Shown: positions 15,127 through 24,593 of the stretch, one piece after another
How positions within the stretch are numbered: position 1 is the first letter of the stretch
Layout of the letters: the number at the start of each line of letters is the position of its first letter
Source of the DNA: Bacteroidales bacterium
GTDB taxonomy: Bacteria > Bacteroidota > Bacteroidia > Bacteroidales > F082
NCBI GenBank assembly: GCA_017460915.1
Contig: JAFUAA010000043.1
Coordinates: 1-37,310 of the forward strand
DNA: 37,310 nucleotides
Reading direction: 5' to 3'
Position numbers and translations under genes: made by a program
The notes under the pieces: generated by a model
Database searches by the model: none
Told to the model about the DNA's origin: nothing
What the model saw: the letters and a program-made list of their open reading frames with translations, nothing else

Positions 15127-16764
15127 ATGAAACGAAACTTGGTTTTGACGACGTTGTCGTTGCTTTTCCCCTTGATTTATGCTTCGGCCCAAGATTCCCA
15201 ATTCAAGGGAGTGTTCGGCGTTGACCGTGAGAAAAAAATCGTCGTGGCCACGGGGCGACTTCCAGAAGGACTTAAATCGGACCAAAATACCATGGAATTG
15301 GATGGTGAGACCTATTCCTACTATCGGAGCGAGATGCCGTTGATAACGATTACGACCGATGGTCCCATCGTCAATTCGCCAGCCGTGCATGGCATTATCA
15401 CGGTGACCGATGCCGACGGTCATGCCATCACGATGCACGCTGGATTCAAGATCAGGGGAACCTCGTCGCAACAATACGACAAGAAGTCGTATCGTGTTGA
15501 ACTCTGGTCAGATGCGACTTGCGACGAGATGGCCGACACCACTTTCCTCGGAATGCGCAGCGACGACGACTGGAACCTCGAAGCCATGTGGGCCCAGCCT
15601 TTGCGCCTTCGCGACAAAGTGGCCAACGAGCTATGGATGGAGATGTATCAGTTGCCATACACCGAAAGCGAGCCCGACGCCTTGCCAGGTATTAGGATGG
15701 AATATGCCGACTTGTTCATCAACAACTCTTACCAAGGCGTTTATGCTTTGACCGAACGCATGGACCGTGTGCAATTGGGTCTGCGCAAGTTCAATGGCGA
15801 GATTCGGGGCGTGCTCTACAAAGGCAACGGCCCTGGTGCCCCAACCTTTGAAAGCCTGCCTGCCTACGACAACAACCAAGACATTTGGGACAACTACGAG
15901 TGGGTCTATCCCAACGAGGAGGAGGCCAACATCAATTGGGACCATCTTTACAGTTTCACCAACTTCGTGATGAATGCCTCCGACAATGCCTTCTATGCCC
16001 AATACGCTTCCCAGTTTGATAAGGACAATGCCATTGATTACTACTTGTTTATCAACGCTTTGAAGGCGATGGACAACATGGGACGCAACCTCTTCTTGGC
16101 GCGTTACAAGAAATCAGGAACCTATTTCTATCTGCCGTGGGACCTCGACGCCATTTGGGGCTTGGATACCGATGGCAACCCGACCTACAACACCGCTGGC
16201 CTGATGACCAACGGCTTCTTCGACAGGCTGGTAAATGATTGCAGTACAAATGGTTTCGTGGCCTCGACCAAAACACGTTACAACGCCTTGCGCAGTACTA
16301 TCCTGAACACGGATTATATCATGAAAATGGTTCAAAATCAGTATAATGACCTGGTTGAAATAGGTGCTTACGACCGTGAGCATGAAGCTTGGCCGACTTA
16401 TTCTGTGAATGAAGGGCAGCTCTGCTATATGCGCAGTTGGTTGGACGACCGTTTCAATTATTTGGATGGCGAAATCAATGCGCCTTGTGGCACTTGGGGC
16501 ATCGAGGACCATGAGCCTGTCGAAGGGCCGACCCAGTTCGTTGAAGTGTTCCCGAATCCTACCAAGGATTGTATCAATGTCCGCTTTGTGGAGGCAGGCG
16601 AGGCCGTCGTCAATTTGTATGACATGACGGGGCGTTTGGTTTATTCAAATAGCGGTGCGGCCCAAGCTATGGTCATCCCGACGCAAGGTTTTGTAAAGGG
16701 CGTTTACACTTTGGTAATCAACGCCTTGGAGCAACAGCAGGTGAGTAGGGTGGTGGTGGAGTAA
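15127..16764 (+). CDS. CotH-family protein kinase-like protein with type IX secretion sorting domain
   Basis: 545 residues. A Sec signal peptide (about 1-22, ending YASAQ) is followed by a CotH domain: FKIRGTSSQQYDKKSYRVEL (the nucleotide-binding-type R-G-x-S/K-Y region), DDDWNL, and YLPWDLDAIWGLD, which carries the catalytic Asp pair seen in CotH. CotH proteins are atypical secreted kinases. The last 75 residues (VEVFPNPTKDCINVRF to the end, with VNLYDMTGRLVYSN) form a type A T9SS C-terminal domain, so the protein is probably secreted across the outer membrane and attached to the surface. A dispersed repeat encodes the linker between the two parts. It follows the RelA gene by 23 bases and ends two bases from tatC, which converges on it. 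Confidence 0.88.
   Translation: MKRNLVLTTLSLLFPLIYASAQDSQFKGVFGVDREKKIVVATGRLPEGLKSDQNTMELDGETYSYYRSEMPLITITTDGPIVNSPAVHGIITVTDADGHAITMHAGFKIRGTSSQQYDKKSYRVELWSDATCDEMADTTFLGMRSDDDWNLEAMWAQPLRLRDKVANELWMEMYQLPYTESEPDALPGIRMEYADLFINNSYQGVYALTERMDRVQLGLRKFNGEIRGVLYKGNGPGAPTFESLPAYDNNQDIWDNYEWVYPNEEEANINWDHLYSFTNFVMNASDNAFYAQYASQFDKDNAIDYYLFINALKAMDNMGRNLFLARYKKSGTYFYLPWDLDAIWGLDTDGNPTYNTAGLMTNGFFDRLVNDCSTNGFVASTKTRYNALRSTILNTDYIMKMVQNQYNDLVEIGAYDREHEAWPTYSVNEGQLCYMRSWLDDRFNYLDGEINAPCGTWGIEDHEPVEGPTQFVEVFPNPTKDCINVRFVEAGEAVVNLYDMTGRLVYSNSGAAQAMVIPTQGFVKGVYTLVINALEQQQVSRVVVE
16506..16530 (+). repeat. Dispersed GAGCCTGTCGAAGGG repeat inside the CotH gene
   Basis: Matches 24 of 25 bases of the stretch at 23260-23284. 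Here it is read as EDHEPVEGP, in the linker just before the T9SS domain. The core CCTTCGACAGGCTCA is a familiar dispersed bacterial repeat. Confidence 0.6.
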
Positions 16765-16766
16765 GG

Positions 16767-17240
16767 CTATTTTTCCATCCTTCGCAGCACCAAAATGCTC
16801 ACTTCATAAAGCAAATACAGCGGAATGGTGACCAAGACGAGCGTCATCAAGTCGGGCGGAGTGATGACGGCGGCCACGACCATAATGACGAGAAACGCAT
16901 ACTTGCGGTATTGTGCCAACATACTTGCAGTTACGACATTCAATTTGCCTAAGAAAAACGCAATGACGGGCAACTCGCTGAAGGTAAAATTGTAGCCAAG
17001 CCTGTGCAAAAACCTCTCGATGTAGCGATAGGTCACGAAGTCCCATTGGCTGGGTGCGAGAAGCAGTTCGAAGGTCTTGTCCTTGAAGCAGAATATGGCC
17101 ACGGCCAGCACCATCACCACAGCGATGATGCGGAACAGCATTCGGCGGAGCACCTCAAGGTGCCCGCCGAAGGTCAGCAGGTTGGGGTCGGCGTTATTGT
17201 CCGGCTCCGTCTTCTTCTTTTGGCTCGGCTTGCGCTTCAT
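16767..17240 (-). CDS. tatC: Twin-arginine translocase subunit TatC, internally shortened
   Basis: 157 residues against about 250-280 for TatC of this phylum. The N-terminal part is normal: the cytoplasmic [15 protein letters not shown] signature with its Glu, the first membrane segment (about 36-52), and [22 protein letters not shown]. The C-terminal part is also normal: [35 protein letters not shown] and the last segment [10 protein letters not shown]. Between residues about 82 and 88 some 100 residues are missing without a frameshift, including membrane segments 2-4 and the second periplasmic loop. A protein of this form would not be expected to form the receptor for twin-arginine signals. 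The start overlaps tatA by 47 bases. It ends two bases from the CotH stop. Confidence 0.8.
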
Positions 17241-17415
17241 CCGTCACCTCTTCCGGTTTCTCTTCTTCCAAAGGCTCGTTCATGCCTTGCTTGAAACTTT
17301 GCACACCTTTGCCCAAGCCTTTCATCAACTCGGGCACCTTTTTGCCGCCGAAGATGAGCAAGGTCACGCCCGCGATGAGCAGCAGTTCCGTCGTTCCGAT
17401 GAATAGCAGTGTCAT
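17194..17415 (-). CDS. tatA: Twin-arginine translocase subunit TatA/TatE
   Basis: 73 residues, typical of TatA. A single N-terminal membrane helix ([20 protein letters not shown]) leads into the [16 protein letters not shown] amphipathic helix with the conserved F-G-x-x-K-x-P-E-L hinge, then a charged tail rich in Glu. TatA oligomers form the channel component for folded proteins. Its start codon overlaps the stop of the CXXX-system accessory gene (ATGA, 17412-17415) and its 3' end overlaps tatC, so the three are translationally coupled. This ties Tat to the peptide system upstream. Confidence 0.93.
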
Positions 17416-17681
17416 GATACGAGGTGGATTTCGTTGGTTTCGAAGTTGATTTCCCAGTTGCCGTTCTCAGCAGACTCCCATTGGTACTTCTGCGCCATGC
17501 GGTCCCACCAGCCTTGGAACTTGGTGCCGGTCTCGCCCATGTCCTTGACGAGTTTCTCGTAGAGTTCGGTGTTGTCGGCGTTGAGGATTTTCGCCAGTTC
17601 GTTCAGCCCGTTCCTTCTTTCGAAGAGCTGCTGGATTTCGTTCTTTTCTTCAGGGGTTACCTGACCTACTTTTTTCTTCAT
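17412..17681 (-). CDS. CXXX repeat peptide modification system protein (small accessory)
   Basis: 89 residues, soluble and helical. The sequence with [39 protein letters not shown] and the C-terminal [14 protein letters not shown] resembles the family that NCBI calls the CXXX repeat peptide modification system protein, as I remember it. It occurs only near radical SAM maturases and Cys-repeat peptides. Its biochemical role is unknown; a peptide-binding or chaperone role is possible. It lies 201 bases after the maturase gene, with dispersed repeats between them, and overlaps tatA by four bases. The identification rests on resemblance plus the neighbourhood. Confidence 0.72.
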
Positions 17682-17756
17682 TGTTGTATGATGTTTATTC
17701 TGTTTATTGTCTGTTTGCTGCTGCCGTAGGTCGCTGACCCACGGTTACTGTAGTGC

Positions 17757-17771
17757 CGCCCCTTCGGGGCG
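17757..17771. repeat. Short GC-rich palindromic repeat unit
   Basis: CGCCCC-TTC-GGGGCG hairpin, in a context (GTGCCGCCCC...) that recurs as a dispersed intergenic repeat in Bacteroidota. It sits in the gap between the maturase and the accessory gene. Confidence 0.5.
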
Positions 17772-17790
17772 AGGCTCTTGTCGTCGCTTT

Positions 17791-17872
17791 GCGTCATTGC
17801 GAACGAAGTGAAGCAATCCAGTATGCAAGCTGGTTTTCTGGATTGCTTCGTCGTACCTCCTCGCAATGATGC
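17791..17872. repeat. Inverted repeat element, about 80 bases
   Basis: The left arm GTCATTGCGA...GAAGCAATCCAG pairs with the right arm CTGGATTGCTTC...TCGCAATGATGC around a short centre. This is a familiar dispersed inverted repeat type in many bacterial genomes (arms with CATTGCGA and AAGCAATCCAG). It ends ten bases from the stop of the maturase gene and could form a large hairpin that uncouples the downstream genes. Confidence 0.75.
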
Positions 17873-17882
17873 GAAGCGTGTC

Positions 17883-18875
17883 CTAAAACTCCTTCCTGAC
17901 CTCAAATGGGTCCAAGTAGTTGATTTCCTTGATGTCGATTTGCGGCATGAATTCGCCAACCTTGCGGATGTCGCTCAGAAGGGCGCGGCTCGCGTTGCGC
18001 TCGATGTGCGCCATCACGCACTGCTGGCGCGAGGGCGTGTTGATGTCCCAAGTCAGGCGGCGGTTGAGCCATAGGCAACGACGGCATTGGAAGGTGTCGC
18101 AGTTGCGGCACAAAGGTGCGTGGTCGAGTTGGAGGAGTTGCGGATTTGGGATGTTCAATCCGTTGTCCAAGTCTCCTACGGAGCGGTCTGACGATGGCTG
18201 ATGATGGTTGAGTTGGTTGAACACCTGCATCTGCTCGTCGTAGTAGAAGGCGGGGCAGAGGTAGAACTTCCCGTTTGGAGCAAGGGTGATGTTGCTCACG
18301 CCCGCCTCGCAGTTGTGCATCTTGTCGAGCATCATCCTGTCCGTCAGCAGGTTGAACTGCGGCGACAGGCCTTGCTTGTAAAGGTCGAGCAAGACGGCGT
18401 TCCATTCCTCAAGCACCTTCTTGTAAGTTTCAATCTGCTCGTCCGAGAATTGCTCCACATCGGTGATGCAGAGGTTAATTCGTGCGCCCGAAGCGAACAG
18501 TTTGGCGATGTTGTCCTTTTGCTTCAGCATTTCGCTGAAGGTTAGGCGAAGGACCAAATTCTTGGCTTCCACCTTTTCGGGGACAGCATTGACGACTTCC
18601 ACATCAGCCTCGTTGCCATCCTCAATTCCCGTAACAGGCTTGCAGCCAACGGGATAGATCTTCACCTTATCGATGCTCTCAATGACCGAGGCGTATTCCT
18701 CAGGCAGGGCATAGTCGGGGAAGACATACTGAATCATTAGGTTCTGCTTCATCCCGAATAGGATGCCTTTCCGCAGGGTTTCAAGCGGCATTAAGTTGCG
18801 CTTTTTCAGCGGGTTGTCGGCGTGACAGTAGGCCACGCTCGTGTCGTCCAATAATATAACAAGGTATTGCAGCAT
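17883..18875 (-). CDS. CXXX repeat peptide maturase (SPASM-like, no radical SAM motif)
   Basis: 330 residues. The C-terminal half resembles a SPASM/twitch-type iron-sulfur region: HNCEAGVSNITLAPNGKFYLCPAFYYD, then CRNCDTFQCRRCLWLNRRL and CVMAHIERNAS. These give at least seven Cys placed like auxiliary cluster ligands. The N-terminal half (MLQYLVILLDDTSVAYCHA, about 1-190) has no C-x3-C-x2-C motif. This fits the family NCBI calls CXXX repeat peptide maturase, always found beside a true radical SAM partner. It may bind auxiliary clusters or the peptide. It starts a few bases after the radical SAM gene ends. A Ser/Asp-rich stretch (PSSDRSVGDLDNG) near residue 230 may be a small insertion. Confidence 0.75.
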   Translation of the reverse strand: MLQYLVILLDDTSVAYCHADNPLKKRNLMPLETLRKGILFGMKQNLMIQYVFPDYALPEEYASVIESIDKVKIYPVGCKPVTGIEDGNEADVEVVNAVPEKVEAKNLVLRLTFSEMLKQKDNIAKLFASGARINLCITDVEQFSDEQIETYKKVLEEWNAVLLDLYKQGLSPQFNLLTDRMMLDKMHNCEAGVSNITLAPNGKFYLCPAFYYDEQMQVFNQLNHHQPSSDRSVGDLDNGLNIPNPQLLQLDHAPLCRNCDTFQCRRCLWLNRRLTWDINTPSRQQCVMAHIERNASRALLSDIRKVGEFMPQIDIKEINYLDPFEVRKEF

Positions 18876-18878
18876 GGC

Positions 18879-20087
18879 TCAGCAGGTTTCGGGTTTGACA
18901 ATGCGTTTGTTGGCTTCGTACTGCTCGCGCAGGTCCTCGAGTTCGAGCTTGCGGTAGAGCTTGTTCCAATAGTAGTTGTTGGCTCTCACCCTTGCCTTGT
19001 GCATGAGGCAGATGGCCGTGGCGCGCTCGAACACGGTGTGCGTCTGCGCCGCGTCGAAGTTCTCGCCTTGGCACCAGGCGCAGCCGCTCGCCACCTCACA
19101 TTCGATGCACTTCTGCGGGCTTTGCGTGGTGCGGTCGAGGGTGAGGAAGGGGCGGAGCTTGTTCTTGTCGATGCCGTCGTGGATGTTGCCGATGGTCCAA
19201 GTCTCCTTGTCGCGGAGTGAGTATTGCGCAAAGCGGGTGCAGGGGTATAGGTTGCCCGCCGCGTCCACGCTGAGCATCTGCCTGCGCCGCACCAGTTCTG
19301 GTTGTCGTGCTCGGGGTCCAGCGGCTTGCCGATGTGCTCCGAGAAAAACGAGCAGGCGTAGTCCTGGTAATAGCCGCCGTCGATGATGGCATCGGCCAAC
19401 TGCATCAGCTGTTCTTCAAACTTGAGGTCGTCGCCTTCTTGCCACACGTCCTCGAACACCACATTGATGTTCACCTCGTGGATGCCCAGTGAATAAAGGT
19501 GCAGCACGCTCTCGGTGATATACGGAATGTCTGCCGACGAGATGGTGACCTTGGTGCCGTTATTTGGGAATTGTTTTAACCACAATGGAATGTTTTTTAC
19601 TACATCATTGTAACTCCCTTTTTCAGTGTTTTTATACACTCTATTGAGGTCGTGTTTGTTCTTAGTCCCATCAATAGTTATGCCGATACTTAATCTTTTT
19701 AATGAAATCCTGCACGGCTTTTTCATGATAGTTGATGCCGTTGGTGGAGAAGGAGAAGCGGTAGCTATTGAACCAATGGTGGTTACGGCAGAAAAGCTCC
19801 GTCTTGATGTAATCGCAAATCTTGTTGATAAGCTCTATCTCAAGGAACGGCTCGCCACCAATGAAGTCCCACACCACCGACTCATAGGCGAAATCGGGGT
19901 CGGTCTCATGGTCGAGCACATAGTCGATGAAGGTCTTGGCCACCTCCCAAGGCATCCGTTCCTTCACGTTCTTGCCCACGAGGTAACAATATTTGCAGGC
20001 CAACTGGCAGTCCTTCGTGACGATGAAGGTGATGTTCTTCGCCATACAGGATTGCCAACTGTTGTTGGAATCTTTAATGAAACTCAT
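18879..20087 (-). pseudogene. Radical SAM/SPASM peptide maturase for CXXX-repeat targets, with two frameshifts
   Basis: Three overlapping frames together give one protein of about 400 residues. The first part (20087 to about 19700) has the radical SAM motif C-QLA-C-KY-C (Cys27, 31, 34), VVWDFIGGEPFLE and SFSTNG. The second (about 19700 to 19290) continues LSIGITIDGTKNKHDLNRVY and ends NWCGAG. The third (about 19290 to 18879) gives QMLSVDAAGNLYPCTRF and the SPASM ligands KCIECEVASGCAWCQGE. One extra base in the AAAAA run near 19700 and one missing base near 19285 explain the breaks, and the first and third parts share a frame. The enzyme would generate a 5'-deoxyadenosyl radical and cross-link or otherwise modify the Cys-rich peptides. 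It begins six bases after the proximal precursor gene. Confidence 0.82.
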
Positions 20088-20093
20088 TGATTA

Positions 20094-20453
20094 TTAATGG
20101 CTCTGGTACGAATTACTTTTGCAACTACCATAACACGTTTGTCTGCACCCGCCACTGCAACTTGACCAACATTGTCTGGAACAATCCATGCAACCGTCGC
20201 TATTCGTGGTTACACTTTTGCAATTGATTGAGCAATCAGATTTGCAGCTTCGTTCACAACCGCTATTGCAACCACCATAGCAGGTGTATTTGCAGCCACT
20301 GCCACAATCACTACAACTGGTTGTATTGCTTACAATAGTATTAGCAATCACTGGATTGTTCATCAAAGCCACGACTCCGAGGATTGGCAGGGCTTTTTTT
20401 GCAGCTTCCTTGAAGAATTCTCTTCTTCCTTGAAAATTGTTGTCACTTTCCAT
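20094..20453 (-). CDS. CXXX-repeat precursor peptide with two Cys blocks and Tat-like leader
   Basis: 119 residues. The leader NFQGRREFFKEAAKKALPIL followed by GVVALMNNPVIANT has the Arg pair, Phe-Phe-Lys, a moderate hydrophobic stretch and an A-x-A-like end, all as in a Tat signal. The core has 16 Cys in two blocks. Block one has nine (C-x2-C, then seven C-x3-C steps, CGSGCKYTCYGGC...). After a KSVTTNSDG spacer, block two has seven (C-x2-C, then five C-x3-C steps, CWSSCSGGCRQTC...). The blocks look like a duplicated core. Positions between Cys are mostly Ser, Gly, Asn, Lys and Arg. It is the precursor next to the radical SAM gene, and probably its substrate. Confidence 0.85.
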   Translation of the reverse strand: MESDNNFQGRREFFKEAAKKALPILGVVALMNNPVIANTIVSNTTSCSDCGSGCKYTCYGGCNSGCERSCKSDCSINCKSVTTNSDGCMDCSRQCWSSCSGGCRQTCYGSCKSNSYQSH

Positions 20454-20517
20454 GTTTATGAGTTTTTAGTTTTGTTAATAATCAAATTTTGTTGTCAAAG
20501 AATTACTTGTTGATATA

Positions 20518-20538
20518 GGGTGTGCCTTTATGACACCC
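20518..20538. other. Small hairpin between the two precursor genes
   Basis: GGGTGT (20518-20523) and ACACCC (20533-20538) can pair around a nine-base loop. It lies 28 bases after the stop of the first precursor gene. No T-tract follows on the minus strand, so it may stabilise or process the precursor mRNA rather than end it. Confidence 0.4.
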
Positions 20539-20565
20539 CCTTTGATTTTGACCTTGTTTTAGTTC

Positions 20566-20841
20566 TTATTTACTATATTTCGTATAAGCATCTCTGCATG
20601 AGGCGCTGCATCCGCCCTTGCAGGAACCAGAACAGCCACCGCTGCATGCTCCTGAACAAGTACCTGAGCAAGTGTATGAACAACTGCCAGTACAACCATC
20701 ACAGGCATTTTTTTCTACTGCCTTTGCAATGACTGGATTGCTCATCAAAGCCATGACACCAAGAAGCGGAAGGGTTTTCTTGGCCGCCTGTTTGAAGAAT
20801 TCTCTTCTTCCTTGAAGATTTTTGTTTTCTCCGTTTTCCAT
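20566..20841 (-). CDS. CXXX-repeat precursor peptide with Tat-like leader (first gene of the operon)
   Basis: 91 residues. The leader NLQGRREFFKQAAKKTLPLL, then GVMALMSNPVIAKA, is nearly identical to that of the second precursor, while the cores differ. Ten Cys form one block: C-x2-C, then eight C-x3-C steps (CSYTCSGTCSGACSGGCSGSC and on). The spacers are almost only Ser, Gly, Thr, Ala and Lys. The tail RDAYTKYSK is short. It follows a long structured leader with a promoter at 21154-21183, so it should be the most abundant product of the operon. Confidence 0.87.
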   Translation of the reverse strand: MENGENKNLQGRREFFKQAAKKTLPLLGVMALMSNPVIAKAVEKNACDGCTGSCSYTCSGTCSGACSGGCSGSCKGGCSASCRDAYTKYSK

Positions 20842-21153
20842 TTTAGTTTGATTTTGTTTGCTTTCCTTGGCTCAAAGGGCAGCGTTATTCGATGGCAAAC
20901 AGAGCGGAGCCTCCCAAACTTATCCTTATTTCTGAAGGTTGGGCTTGGACTCCCATGATATAACAAAATAATGGATACGGTAAGCTCCACTGTTTATGTT
21001 AGGTATATAAAGGATACACAAACATTAAACAGTGAAAGCCGCCTCATCTCATTATTCCTCATATACCAAAGTGAATTGTCCAGATTCACAGCGAGGAACA
21101 AAGCGAAGAATGCGCTTTCTCTGGCCGTGCCGTTTTCTCTCGGCTTGGCGGGG
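20842..21153 (-). promoter_or_regulatory. Long 5' leader of the CXXX peptide operon
   Basis: About 310 bases between the promoter and the first precursor start, with no credible gene. Three inverted repeats are visible: GCCGTGCCG/CGGCTTGGC with two mismatches (21124-21149), AAAGCG/CGCTTT (21100-21118) and GTGAAT/ATTCAC (21071-21089). A second possible -7 box, TAAGTTTG, lies at 20915-20922, so a shorter transcript is also possible. The length and structure would suit control of the transcript, but no known riboswitch class is recognised. Confidence 0.45.
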
Positions 21154-21183
21154 CAAAGATACAAAGAAATTGGGATTTGCAAG
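21154..21183 (-). promoter_or_regulatory. Promoter upstream of the CXXX peptide operon
   Basis: The -7 box TATCTTTG (21154-21161) lies 18 bases after the TTG (21180-21182) of a CTTG -33 box, close to the Bacteroidota consensus. Transcription would start near 21147 and read through both precursor genes. Confidence 0.6.
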
Positions 21184-21209
21184 AGGAAAGATAGAAAAAA
21201 TAATTCGTG

Positions 21210-21540
21210 TTAGAAAAATTGTTGGTACGAATCTTCAGATTCATATATGGCAAGGTTGTTCTTGTTGCCATAGAAACAATCGTCTTCCCAACGGATTACA
21301 TTGTTTTGTATGTAATCGGCGATAAGGTTCATTTCGAGTTGGCTGCGGATGATGTGGTCGTGAAAACGAGGTTGCCATGCGAAAGAAAGGTCGTTTTCAT
21401 TCGCAAATTTGGTGACGCCAATCTTGAAACCACGGACGACAGAGGCCAGGTTTTTCGATTGCGGGCCGAATTTTTGTTTGGCCTGTTGTAGAGACGCAAA
21501 ATTTTGCGTCTCTACATTTGGTTGATATGTATGCGCTTCC
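21210..21540 (-). pseudogene. C-terminal remnant of a REP-associated (RAYT/IS200-like) tyrosine transposase
   Basis: About 110 codons are open on the minus strand and end with TAA at 21210. Recognisable family sequences are KFGPQSKNLASVVRGFK, FAWQPRFHDHIIRSQLEMN and ADYIQNNVIRWEDDCFY, typical of Bacteroidota Y1-type transposases. The N-terminal half with the HUH motif is absent, because the fragment runs into the end of the DUF1295 gene. In this frame the 30-base palindrome at 21487-21516 is read as VETQNFASL, just before the KFGPQSKN region. It cannot encode an active enzyme. Confidence 0.8.
21487..21516. repeat. Perfect 30-base palindrome, REP-like
   Basis: TGTAGAGACGCAAAA followed immediately by its exact reverse complement. 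A dispersed palindrome of this sequence is widely seen in Bacteroidota. Here it lies inside the frame of a REP-type transposase remnant, whose natural substrates are such palindromes. Confidence 0.85.
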
Positions 21541-21546
21541 TCTGAT

Positions 21547-22350
21547 CTATGCCTGCAACCATTTGTATTTGGCCAGACTGTAAATCGGGAGCAAAGGAAT
21601 CAAGATGGGTGTTTTCTTGACATAGGCCTGATATTCAGGATCATTGCCATAGACCTCGTTTTGACGCAATTCGAGACGGGGGGCGCCGCTGAACATCACA
21701 TAAAGGATGCCAACATAGCCGATGGCCGCGATGACCCATTGCCATACCGTCAGGCTCGCCCCGATGCCGCTGAGAAGGATGCCGGTCCAAATGACGACTT
21801 CGCCTAAATAGTTGGGACAACGGACGATACGGAACAACCCCGTGTCGACAAAACGCTTGGGGTTCTTTTTCTTGGCCGCCGACTTTTGCATGTCGCTGAA
21901 GGCTTCCAAGAGAATGCCGCAAAGCGTGACGGCAGCGCCAATCCAAGCCCAAAGCTCTGTGACGGGTTTCCCCTCTGTGGCATTGGCCAAACGGAAGACC
22001 ACAGGGCTCACTTGCGCCACATAAAGGATAGCACAAAACAGCCAAACCATGAGGATGGCGGTGATGGGTTTCTTCTTTTGCAACGACGGGTCGTAAAGGA
22101 TTTTGCGGTAGGCGGCGGCTTTCCGTTCGCGAATCAGCAGGTAGGTGCCCAAACGACAACCAAAGATGACCAGCAAAATGCAGAGAATGGCCGACGCAGG
22201 GGTGAGGGCTCCGAAAAACAGGATGGCGATGGTGATGGCAAGGGCAGCGATGCCGTAGCCATAGCCGAGGCTGAAGAAATAAATGAAGTATTTCCAACCC
22301 ACACTTGAGATGAGCAATGAAACGGCAAAAAGTATCAGCAGGTAAGTCAT
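21547..22350 (-). CDS. DUF1295 membrane protein (steroid 5-alpha reductase/isoprenylcysteine methyltransferase-like)
   Basis: 267 residues with six or seven membrane segments. The C-terminal region RFVDTGLFRIVRCPNYLGEV, then GAPRLELRQNEVYGNDPEYQAYVKKTPILIPLLP, is the signature of the DUF1295/ICMT-like superfamily (a G-L-F/W-x-x-x-R-x-P-N-Y-x-G-E motif and a terminal Tyr-Lys-x-T-P stretch). Family relatives reduce double bonds or methylate lipophilic substrates in membranes, but the substrate here is unknown. It has its own promoter and is not linked to the neighbouring genes by function. Confidence 0.82.
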   Translation of the reverse strand: MTYLLILFAVSLLISSVGWKYFIYFFSLGYGYGIAALAITIAILFFGALTPASAILCILLVIFGCRLGTYLLIRERKAAAYRKILYDPSLQKKKPITAILMVWLFCAILYVAQVSPVVFRLANATEGKPVTELWAWIGAAVTLCGILLEAFSDMQKSAAKKKNPKRFVDTGLFRIVRCPNYLGEVVIWTGILLSGIGASLTVWQWVIAAIGYVGILYVMFSGAPRLELRQNEVYGNDPEYQAYVKKTPILIPLLPIYSLAKYKWLQA

Positions 22351-22380
22351 GGTTTTACATTTTTATGGTGAATAATGGCG

Positions 22381-22411
22381 CAAAAATAGTTTTTTTTCTT
22401 GCTGACGCAAC
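22381..22411 (-). promoter_or_regulatory. Promoter of the DUF1295 gene
   Basis: A GTTG -33 box (22408-22411) and a TATTTTTG -7 box (22381-22388) are separated by exactly 19 bases on the minus strand, 30 bases before the start codon. Confidence 0.65.
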
Positions 22412-22430
22412 AAAAACTCATGTGAAAACA

Positions 22431-24593
22431 TCATAGTTTCCAAATCATCTCCACTTTCAAGTCTGTCTTGTGGTTGCCTTCAATTAGCGTCAATCCGCTG
22501 CCGATTTCGTCGCGGTCGCTGTAGATGGTGCGACCGATGCGGGCGTAAAGGGTCAGATTGCTGAAAGGCTTCCATTTTCCTAACAGATAGATTCTCATGC
22601 CTTTGCCATACAATGCAGGCACGCTGAACGAATACAGCACGTCGCTTTCGTAGGCGTAGATGCGGGCGTTGTAGTCCTTGGCATCGAAGAGGGCGTAGCG
22701 GAAGCTGAGGCTAAAAGGCTTGCTTTCAGGTTTGTAGGCGATGTCCTGACAGAGGAAGTAACCGTGTTCGTTCGTGCCGTCCTCGTTGTGATAGTGGGCG
22801 TATTCGGCTTTGTTGCTGCACTGGAAATCCCTGCCAATCTGATAGTTGATGTTGAATCTCACCGAGTTCTTCGTGTAGAGGATAGGGTAGTGGCTGAACA
22901 CCATCGCATCAGTGGAATTCTTCATCTTGGTCTTGGAACGGATTTGCAGGTAGGCGTTGGCTCGACGGCTGAAACTGTGGCTGACGCGCAGGTAGTAGTC
23001 GTGGCCGTTGCTTGGTGCGTTGACTTGCGAGGTCAGCCAGGTGTATTGGAACTGATCGACGTAGGCGAGGAGGTTCCAATAGGGCGCGGGAGCGGCTTCC
23101 ACGCCGAGATACACGCCGCGTTGACCTTGGTTGCGACTGCCTTCGCCAAAGGCATTGCCGAGAAGGTTCTGGTAGGCTTTGCCGTAATTGCGATACAGAA
23201 GCGTAAAGTTAAGATAACCAGCAGGTTTTACGGTCATTCCCACCAGGCCAGCGAACGAAGGACCCTGAGCCTGTCGAAGGGCCGTAGTGTCTGGATTGTG
23301 GCTCATCGCCGCTTCGCCAAAAATGGCAAATTTGCCTTTAACATACTTGAAATCAAGACCTTGGTCGGTGAGTTGCTGGCCTTGGAAATAGAATTGGTTG
23401 TAGTGGCTGGGCTTGAGTTGTAAAGGCACGCTGAGCCAAGTGTGGTGCAAGGTGTAGCCCACCTCGAAATGCGCGATGGCGTAGGCCAAATGCCCACCCA
23501 CCACCTGTTGCCGGATGGCGTGACGGTCTTGGATTTCGCCGATAGTGCGGTGATAGCCAGTCTCTTGCAGACTGCTGACGAGTTCGGCTTCATCCAAACT
23601 TTCGGCCACGCTCACGTTGGCGTCAATCTTTCGGTTGGAGTAGAACACCGTGCCGCTGAAAGGTCCGCCGCCCAAGGTGACCGCCGCGCCGCGCATATAG
23701 GAATACTCGCTGGCCGAGCCTTTGGGTGTGATGCCGCGCCCTTGTTTCATCACGCTGCTGCCTGCGCCCGCCTTGCCGAAACTCATCCCCGACCATAGCG
23801 TCAGCCCTTGGCCGTAAGCCAGTTGATAGTCACCGACGGCGGCGGCTTTCACAATGCCCAAGTCTTTGGCGTAGAGGTGGAAACCAGCAAAATCGAAGCC
23901 GCGTTGGTAGTTGTCGCCCAACAAGGCGCGAATCGTGTCGCTGACTTTGTCGGTGAAAAACATTTCTCCAGCGTCTTTTTCCAAAACAAAGCCCGCGCGG
24001 ACCTTGTTCCTATAATTATAGGTGTATTTGAGTTGGTATTTTTGCGGGCTGCCGAGATAGCGCGAGTTGGGCTTGACCAAAAGCGCGGAATCGTCGATGG
24101 GAGCGTAACCCTGCTGTTGCTCAAGGATTTGCTCGTAACGTCCCACAATTTGGTGCTTGCCATAACGCGCCAACTTGTTGAAAGTCAACTTGTCTTTGTC
24201 CTCGTCTTTCCCGATGCACACCACGGGATTGATGATGGCCAAGGTTTGTTCGTCGAAGCCTTCCACCATCTCCAGTTCTTCAAGGAACATGAAATCGCCA
24301 TAATAGCGACGGTATTTCTGGATTTCCTCGTATTGGAACACGCTGAGCAAGCGGAGTTCCACGAGTTGCATCACCTCGTCGCTGTTGAGGTTGACGGGAT
24401 TCTCGCTGAAAAAGATGTAATTGTCCAAAAGGTCCTCAAAATCAGCATCATCGTCACTGTCTTCGGCCAATCGCTCGATTTGTTCGATGAGCAACTGATC
24501 CAAAGCCTCGGTGCTGAGCGTGTCGATGGCGATTTGCGCCTTCGCAAACGAGAAACAGAAGAGGGATAATATGATGATTACCAGTCGTCTCAT
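22431..24593 (-). CDS. Helix-hairpin-helix domain protein with probable outer-membrane beta-barrel
   Basis: 720 residues. A signal peptide (MRRLVIIILSLFCFSFAKAQ) is followed by an acidic stretch and a helix-hairpin-helix region (about 60-125, NPVNLNSDEVMQLVEL and YYGDFMFLEELEMVEGFDEQ) like that of ComEA. The remaining 570 residues show alternating strands and many aromatic residues, such as GYTLHHTWLSVPLQL and a final LIEGNHKTDLKVEMIWKL. That is what a beta-barrel would look like. The family is widespread in Bacteroidota but has no assigned function; DNA binding or uptake at the surface is a speculation from the HhH part. The gene is one base downstream of the PorV/PorQ-like gene. A dispersed repeat is read in frame as ALRQAQGPS near residue 440. 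Confidence 0.75.
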   Translation of the reverse strand: MRRLVIIILSLFCFSFAKAQIAIDTLSTEALDQLLIEQIERLAEDSDDDADFEDLLDNYIFFSENPVNLNSDEVMQLVELRLLSVFQYEEIQKYRRYYGDFMFLEELEMVEGFDEQTLAIINPVVCIGKDEDKDKLTFNKLARYGKHQIVGRYEQILEQQQGYAPIDDSALLVKPNSRYLGSPQKYQLKYTYNYRNKVRAGFVLEKDAGEMFFTDKVSDTIRALLGDNYQRGFDFAGFHLYAKDLGIVKAAAVGDYQLAYGQGLTLWSGMSFGKAGAGSSVMKQGRGITPKGSASEYSYMRGAAVTLGGGPFSGTVFYSNRKIDANVSVAESLDEAELVSSLQETGYHRTIGEIQDRHAIRQQVVGGHLAYAIAHFEVGYTLHHTWLSVPLQLKPSHYNQFYFQGQQLTDQGLDFKYVKGKFAIFGEAAMSHNPDTTALRQAQGPSFAGLVGMTVKPAGYLNFTLLYRNYGKAYQNLLGNAFGEGSRNQGQRGVYLGVEAAPAPYWNLLAYVDQFQYTWLTSQVNAPSNGHDYYLRVSHSFSRRANAYLQIRSKTKMKNSTDAMVFSHYPILYTKNSVRFNINYQIGRDFQCSNKAEYAHYHNEDGTNEHGYFLCQDIAYKPESKPFSLSFRYALFDAKDYNARIYAYESDVLYSFSVPALYGKGMRIYLLGKWKPFSNLTLYARIGRTIYSDRDEIGSGLTLIEGNHKTDLKVEMIWKL
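23260..23284 (-). repeat. Dispersed CCTTCGACAGGCTCAGG repeat inside the HhH-barrel gene
   Basis: The minus strand reads CGGCCCTTCGACAGGCTCAG and onward, encoding ALRQAQGPS in frame. The opposite strand spells the LSLSKG hallmark of this repeat. It matches 24 of 25 bases with the copy in the CotH gene at 16506-16530. Confidence 0.7.

Follow-up and report, generated by a model that had tools for sequence, protein, structure and literature searches.

A CXXX-repeat radical SAM peptide operon linked with tatA and tatC, widespread in Bacteroidales and present here as a damaged copy

Gene content of the locus

The DNA studied here (the window) is a stretch of 37,310 nucleotides from a Bacteroidales bacterium (GCA_017460915.1, contig JAFUAA010000043.1), and the system in question is an operon for a ribosomally synthesized and post-translationally modified peptide (RiPP) of the CXXX-repeat type, in which the genes for two precursors, a radical S-adenosylmethionine (SAM) maturase, a pseudo-SAM protein and an accessory protein are followed by tatA and tatC of the twin-arginine translocation (Tat) system. 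The window locus is a damaged copy of an operon widespread in Bacteroidales, and the features of this operon family suggest that its peptides are probably exported through the TatA-TatC pair (tatAC) after modification. The features of the locus are the following:

20566..20841, minus strand: precursor peptide 1, 91 amino acids, with the Tat-like leader GRREFFKQAAKKTLPLLGVMALMSNPVIAKA followed by Cys-X-X-X repeats (TIGR04117, 58.2 bits, cut-off 50)
20094..20453, minus strand: precursor peptide 2, 119 amino acids, with the leader GRREFFKEAAKKALPILGVVALMNNPVIANT followed by Cys-X-X-X repeats (TIGR04117, 44.3 bits against a cut-off of 50)
18879..20087, minus strand: radical SAM/SPASM peptide maturase, broken (TIGR04115, pieces of 189.5, 217.6 and 178.4 bits)
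17883..18875, minus strand: pseudo-SAM protein (CXXX repeat peptide maturase) with a SPASM-like C-terminus, intact, 330 amino acids (TIGR04119, 226 bits, cut-off 150)
17785..17878, no strand assigned: interspersed hairpin repeat in the gap between the pseudo-SAM and accessory genes (18-base inverted arms)
17412..17681, minus strand: CXXX system accessory protein, 89 amino acids (TIGR04116, 100 bits, cut-off 50)
17194..17415, minus strand: tatA, 73 amino acids (PF02416, 52.2 bits, cut-off 21; TIGR01411, 57.3 bits, cut-off 53.9)
16767..17240, minus strand: tatC remnant, 157 amino acids (PF00902 in pieces; TIGR00945, 61.6 bits, cut-off 132.7)

The order of transcription on the minus strand is precursor 1, precursor 2, maturase, pseudo-SAM protein, accessory protein, tatA and tatC. 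The accessory protein, the pseudo-SAM protein, precursor 1 and TatA (with both PF02416 and TIGR01411) are above the cut-offs of their models; precursor 2, the maturase pieces and tatC are below the NCBIfam cut-offs. This gene set had been proposed from the sequence alone (the original prediction), and its positions and overlaps were borne out: the two precursors with GRREFFK leaders are present at 20841-20566 and 20453-20094 on the minus strand, the accessory gene, tatA and tatC were recovered by matches to TIGR04116, PF02416 and PF00902, and the overlaps are exact, with an ATGA at 17412-17415 between the accessory gene and tatA, and 47 bases at 17194-17240 between tatA and tatC. The damage to the maturase and tatC had been missed, as had the added bases in the gap between the pseudo-SAM and accessory genes. 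Both precursors have an RR motif and a hydrophobic stretch, which make them predicted Tat substrates, and they are the only TIGR04117 precursors found in the window genome, its duplicate contig aside.

Integrity of the window copy

The window maturase consists of three pieces in two frames, with 20087-19671 and ~19292-18879 sharing one frame and ~19699-19262 in another. Compared with the near relative L047, the frame breaks near 19694 and 19280, with stops in between. The best single piece has 217.6 bits against the TIGR04115 cut-off of 350, and the pieces of the shared frame, read through two stops, reach 358.6 bits. The complete relatives within the genus have the maturase as one open frame, except for L042, where a second short frame also matches. 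The window tatC keeps profile positions 2-61 and 155-208 of 208, positions 62-154 being missing, and the loss amounts to 351 bases relative to L047, with the frame kept. A full-length TatC was not found at the window locus (157 amino acids, and 61.6 bits against the TIGR00945 cut-off of 132.7), and open frames of 263-297 amino acids are present in 26 of the 27 genus relatives having tatC, the other (L035) having an internal stop. Given the known topology of TatC, the deletion takes out about the second to fourth membrane helices, and the window TatC is therefore probably inactive. An intact, separate tatC is present in the window genome on contig C72.

The gap between the pseudo-SAM and accessory genes is ~174 bases longer than in L047 and includes the hairpin repeat, a palindrome of ~94 bases with copies at many sites of the window genome. 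A 131-base probe of this repeat gave 74 match rows in that genome, many of which pair both strands of a single palindrome, while others come from duplicate contigs. Contig C51 is a second copy of window 16243-23220, this locus included, and differs from it by one mismatch in 6978 bases; as a duplicate, it is not an independent witness to the locus. Contigs C33 and C47 of the window genome gave equal matches in the maturase and hairpin-repeat searches and may be another duplicated pair.

Because the maturase and tatC are broken, the window copy is probably silent, wholly or in part. The suggestion that the peptide system brings Tat genes of its own is right for the family. For the window genome it probably is not, as the locus tatC has an internal deletion and the maturase is in pieces. 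Faults of assembly or sequencing could also produce maturase frame breaks and a short tatC in a copy that is really intact; such faults are common in assemblies, the window genome is split over 79 contigs, and a duplicate contig exists. However, the neighbouring genes are long open frames, one of the losses covers 351 bases in frame, and C51 has the identical breaks, though perhaps from the same reads, so that an intact copy hidden by such faults is considered unlikely.

Genome samples

The accessory family was found in 27 of 99 genomes of the genus (58 to 100% complete), the window's included, and all 29 genus matches outside the window genome were taken in. A scan of genome contigs found 324 relatives, of which the closest 80 to the query were used as scan loci. 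An even draw over the order gave matches in 14 of 393 genomes; two of them belong to the genus, G739, with a weak match below the cut-off, was left out, and the remaining 11 gave 12 loci. Deduplication left 97 distinct loci. Of these, 94 are testable and 3 are too short, and the 94 do not include L059 and L060, which are the same loci as L153 and L154. Some loci that are near-duplicates or cut off remain in the counts given below for the Tat-like leader rule, the clustering of neighbouring families and the motif in called genes.

When the phylum of the window was sampled evenly, the accessory family turned up in 3 of 392 genomes, the window genome among them, and in 398 genomes drawn from the phylum of G879 the sole match was G879 itself. 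Two loci (L090 and L106) come from genomes labelled Clostridia and Lachnospiraceae and have accessory proteins with 85% identity to those of Bacteroidales loci; these contigs are perhaps wrongly binned.

Linkage of tatA and tatC to the operon

tatA and tatC are present downstream of the accessory gene in 78 of the 94 distinct testable loci. For 75 of these loci, no more than 350 bases separate the accessory gene from the start of the tatC frame; for the other three, the distances are 439, 744 and 1762 bases. By sample, the pair was found in 26 of 28 loci of the genus, 7 of 12 of the order draw, 45 of 52 of the scan and 0 of 2 of the phylum draw; before deduplication, it was present in 27 of the 29 genus loci outside the window genome. 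The maturase is present in 10 of the 12 order-draw loci, 7 of which have tatAC. With the core families and their antisense frames set aside, no other gene family occurred near the locus in more than 11 of 94 clustered loci. As the genus genomes (1.4 to 3.8 Mb) have only 0 to 3 TatC each, not counting the broken pieces in the window genome, chance adjacency is negligible.

Among 18 genomes having a locus without visible tatC, 16 have a TatC; the set includes three loci in which the contig ends within ~1 kb of the accessory gene (L097, L099 and L105), a genome with lone accessory genes (G719) and another with tatC at its other locus (G042), and the two without TatC, G878 and G879, have no stated completeness. 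In G719, two accessory-family genes (L146 and L152) have no maturase or tat gene found nearby.

Gene fusions support the view that the products of the operon core work jointly. The pseudo-SAM protein is fused with the accessory protein in two distant genomes (L153 and L154), and the maturase is fused with the pseudo-SAM protein in L148, forming a 725-amino-acid protein. The accessory protein itself has a predicted strand-helix-helix-strand-strand fold (mean predicted local distance difference test score, pLDDT, of 93), for which Foldseek gave no match with E <0.001. Structural matches with a Z score were middling, with a highest Z of 7.4 for a helical hairpin, and among PDB sequences nothing was better than E 0.1. 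These results speak neither for nor against the accessory protein being a Tat chaperone or a RiPP recognition domain of a known type.

Precursor leaders and repeat cores

The leaders were tested with a Tat-like rule that asks for RR, hydrophobic residues after RR and an uncharged hydrophobic stretch. Of 183 precursor frames that have an ATG, 174 pass, against 3 of 3660 shuffled leaders; another five frames, in which no ATG precedes the repeats, were left out of the count. As controls, the rule called all 4 of the E. coli Tat signals and 0 of the 3 Sec signals used. Of the nine precursor-like frames that fail it, four have RRxFF and fail the limit on charge or hydrophobicity, and the other five either have no leader or are unlikely to be precursors. 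Among the precursor-like misses that were listed, no RK or KR version of the motif is seen.

After deduplication, the rule passes 134 of 142 precursors, and RRx(F/Y/L) is present in 137 of them, with the consensus S-R-R-E-F-F-K. The Tat link is thus not accidental: the original prediction had named as its refutation a tatAC confined to this genome together with leaders failing Tat prediction in most relatives, and this condition is contradicted by the 78 of 94 loci with tatAC and by the 134 of 142 precursors that pass the rule. Within the 137 precursors preselected by the RR pattern, position 3 (first R = 0) is F in 133, position 4 is F in 129, position 5 is K in 123, and S directly precedes RR in 89. 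A stricter form of the motif, RRxF(F/I/L)(K/R), was found in 96 of 105 precursor-like called genes vs 2 of 918 others.

By pattern, the leader ends in an AxA-like motif in 96 of the 137 and in a lipobox in 40, of which about six appear false by eye. In 12 of the 40 lipobox leaders, the sequence C-X-K-(D/E)-(D/E) is present, a form described in the portion of PMC5080379 drawn on here as optimal for lipoprotein surface export in Capnocytophaga. In the same preselected precursors, the median number of Cys in the core is 14, and 87% of the spacings from one Cys to the next measure four residues. Pfam scans of the precursors and leaders gave nothing useful. Upstream of the operon in L069 (3874-4893), a 340-amino-acid protein with weak fn3 similarity has an RREFFK leader and a lipobox, and is possibly a second Tat passenger; L067:3054-4538 resembles it, with a weaker motif.

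Copy number, phylogeny and exchange of the Tat pair

At least two TatC were found in 20 of the 27 genus genomes with the accessory gene vs 2 of the 72 without it (Fisher p = 4e-13, with the window genome counted as having fewer than two), a difference that partly follows from the adjacency itself and is drawn from genomes of uneven completeness. Genomes without any TatC number 0 of 27 and 14 of 72, respectively (p = 0.01). On this contrast in copy number, the tatAC of the locus is mostly an extra copy. In G008, G011, G021, G028 and G041, the TatC of the CXXX operon is the only TatC found in the genome.

In a tree of 119 TatCs, 78 from the loci and 41 from elsewhere in the genus genomes (the housekeeping rows of other genera were left out), 4 changes account for the locus label, whereas shuffling the labels raises this to 34.4, and the locus TatCs form a largely separate lineage. 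A reading in which only housekeeping Tat genes are involved was rejected for the family on this ground, three non-locus TatCs falling inside the lineage.

Comparison of single operons points to exchange of the pair. L026 and L047 match at 91% in the maturase, 85% in the pseudo-SAM protein and 84% in the accessory protein, and at 44% in TatA and 42% in TatC. L026 and L054 match at 79%, 50% and 72% in the same three proteins, and at 97% in TatA and 96% in TatC. In the comparison of L026 with L038, the accessory gene has moved with the Tat pair (97%). These values indicate that tatAC has been exchanged between otherwise different operons with its slot kept and, as distinct pairs have been swapped into the same slot, the pair looks to be under selection.

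Proposed maturation and export of the peptides

Gene content, adjacency, leader type and tatAC exchange can be read from the sequence, and on their basis it is proposed here that the CXXX-repeat peptide is modified in the cytoplasm and then exported in folded form through the TatAC of the operon, a pathway that we regard as probable. Radical SAM chemistry belongs in the cytoplasm, and Tat takes folded cargo. The twin-arginine signal of the precursor would double as the RiPP leader, and the SPASM radical SAM enzyme, helped by the pseudo-SAM and accessory proteins, would act on the repeats inside the cell, the most likely modification being sulfur cross-links. The folded product would pass through the TatA-TatC pair encoded by the same operon and be freed into the periplasm by signal peptidase I. 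For the lipobox minority, the product would instead be lipidated and probably moved to the cell surface, and in operons without tatAC another Tat of the genome would carry out the export. A cross-linked repeat would be hard to thread via Sec, and since it would be ill-suited to that route and Tat accepts folded cargo, a sequence of modification, folding, checking and export is suggested. Cross-linking before export fits the biology of both systems, although we infer the order of the steps, as well as the kind of cross-link, the need for folding, the final location and the function. A broader reading, in which these peptides form a RiPP class with a dedicated Tat, the signal is the maturation leader, Tat acts as a checkpoint for folded cargo that releases the peptide solely in cross-linked form, and part of the products is lipid-anchored at the surface as cross-linked Cys-repeat peptides, is more tentative and may well not hold. 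The operon would also give gut and rumen bacteria a Tat system reserved for a single class of small substrates. Hosts of the operon include at least two named Xylanibacter strains, X. rarus (L113) and X. caecicola (L124), both cultured and with the operon intact.

Several observations weigh against the proposed pathway. Neither tat gene is present in 15 of the 94 loci, another locus has tatA only, and the operon copy of the window itself is broken. In the tree, for which the program gave a long-branch warning, the non-locus TatCs of G090, G031 and G072 are placed within the main group of locus TatCs. The Tat-like leader rule, which is looser than the strict motif, lets through 72 of 2493 frames that are not precursors as well as 33 of the 918 other called genes, many of the latter being TatC itself, and a Cys-repeat precursor in L148 has no Tat leader, yet its genome has TatC. 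The cross-link, the export and the fold of the product are predictions. The general Tat model TIGR01409, which is a detection aid and not a defining criterion of a Tat substrate, reached its cut-off for 0 of 8 leaders; it was listed for one of them, with 14.6 bits against a cut-off of 16.7, and a formate-dehydrogenase Tat model was listed for another, far below its cut-off.

Recognition by the maturase may be a further role of the conserved leader, or its sole one. RiPP leaders are normally read by the maturase, and the precursor model TIGR04117 covers the leader region; together with the low TIGR01409 scores, this would agree with an RR leader that serves maturase recognition only, the peptides leaving via Sec or staying inside and tatAC serving another substrate. 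However, the leader combines the RR motif with a hydrophobic stretch and an AxA-like end or lipobox, RK and KR versions are missing from the listed precursor-like misses, and no other conserved gene of the locus is a possible Tat substrate, which together make a leader for recognition only rather improbable. The inheritance of the Tat pair as neighbouring DNA of the operon, with no functional link, would suit the descent of many loci in the same order and the use of the closest 80 of 324 relatives as scan loci, but it is highly improbable in view of distinct TatAC pairs in the same slot, their exchange between operons and the presence of tatAC in 7 of the 10 maturase-bearing loci even at the level of the order.

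Comparison with known systems

In the open-access literature, searches found no Tat-linked RiPP operon among the matches listed, no paper on the TIGR families or 'CXXX repeat peptide', and none joining Tat signal, radical SAM and RiPP; term searches of PMC10352776, on Bacteroidales RiPPs, and PMC5682303 gave no Tat or CXXX passage.

Freyrasin-type ranthipeptides (PapA/PapB, CX3D) have in common with the window system a SPASM radical SAM maturase and periodic Cys. The PapB model NF047865 ranks second or third among the matches of all three maturase pieces, and by profile the maturase resembles PapB-type thioether formers. PapB links Cys to Asp via thioethers, according to the part of PMC10470005 used here. 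Unlike in freyrasin, 87% of the Cys-Cys spacings in the present precursors lead from one Cys to another four residues later, and the leader is of the Tat type.

The bufferins, copper-binding RiPPs modified by MNIO enzymes, resemble the window system in that an export signal replaces a plain leader. In the sections of PMC12452194 on which this comparison draws, ~16% of the Buf2 group are predicted lipoproteins, Sec signal peptides are described as rare among RiPP precursors, with Sec use shown experimentally only for the bufferins, and the question is raised of how early export is prevented until the modification of a RiPP ends. A translocase for folded proteins and a modifying enzyme in one operon would be a simple and testable answer to that question. 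Bufferins use Sec and a different enzyme class, whereas Tat-type signals and a radical SAM enzyme are found here.

QhpD is the radical SAM enzyme that cross-links QhpC, of quinohemoprotein amine dehydrogenase. As described in the part of PMC7876137 used here, QhpC is thioether-cross-linked in the cytoplasm and then taken to the periplasm, so that a peptide is cross-linked before export, as proposed for the CXXX-repeat precursors; its leader is cut by the protease QhpE and it is exported by the ABC transporter QhpF, whereas export here would be through Tat. With the CXXX-repeat radical SAM RiPP system, the window shares the maturase (TIGR04115), accessory (TIGR04116), precursor (TIGR04117) and pseudo-SAM (TIGR04119) families, and the names of these models include neither a linked TatA-TatC pair nor a Tat nature of the leader, both of which are present here. 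No paper found in the open-access searches describes either feature for this system.

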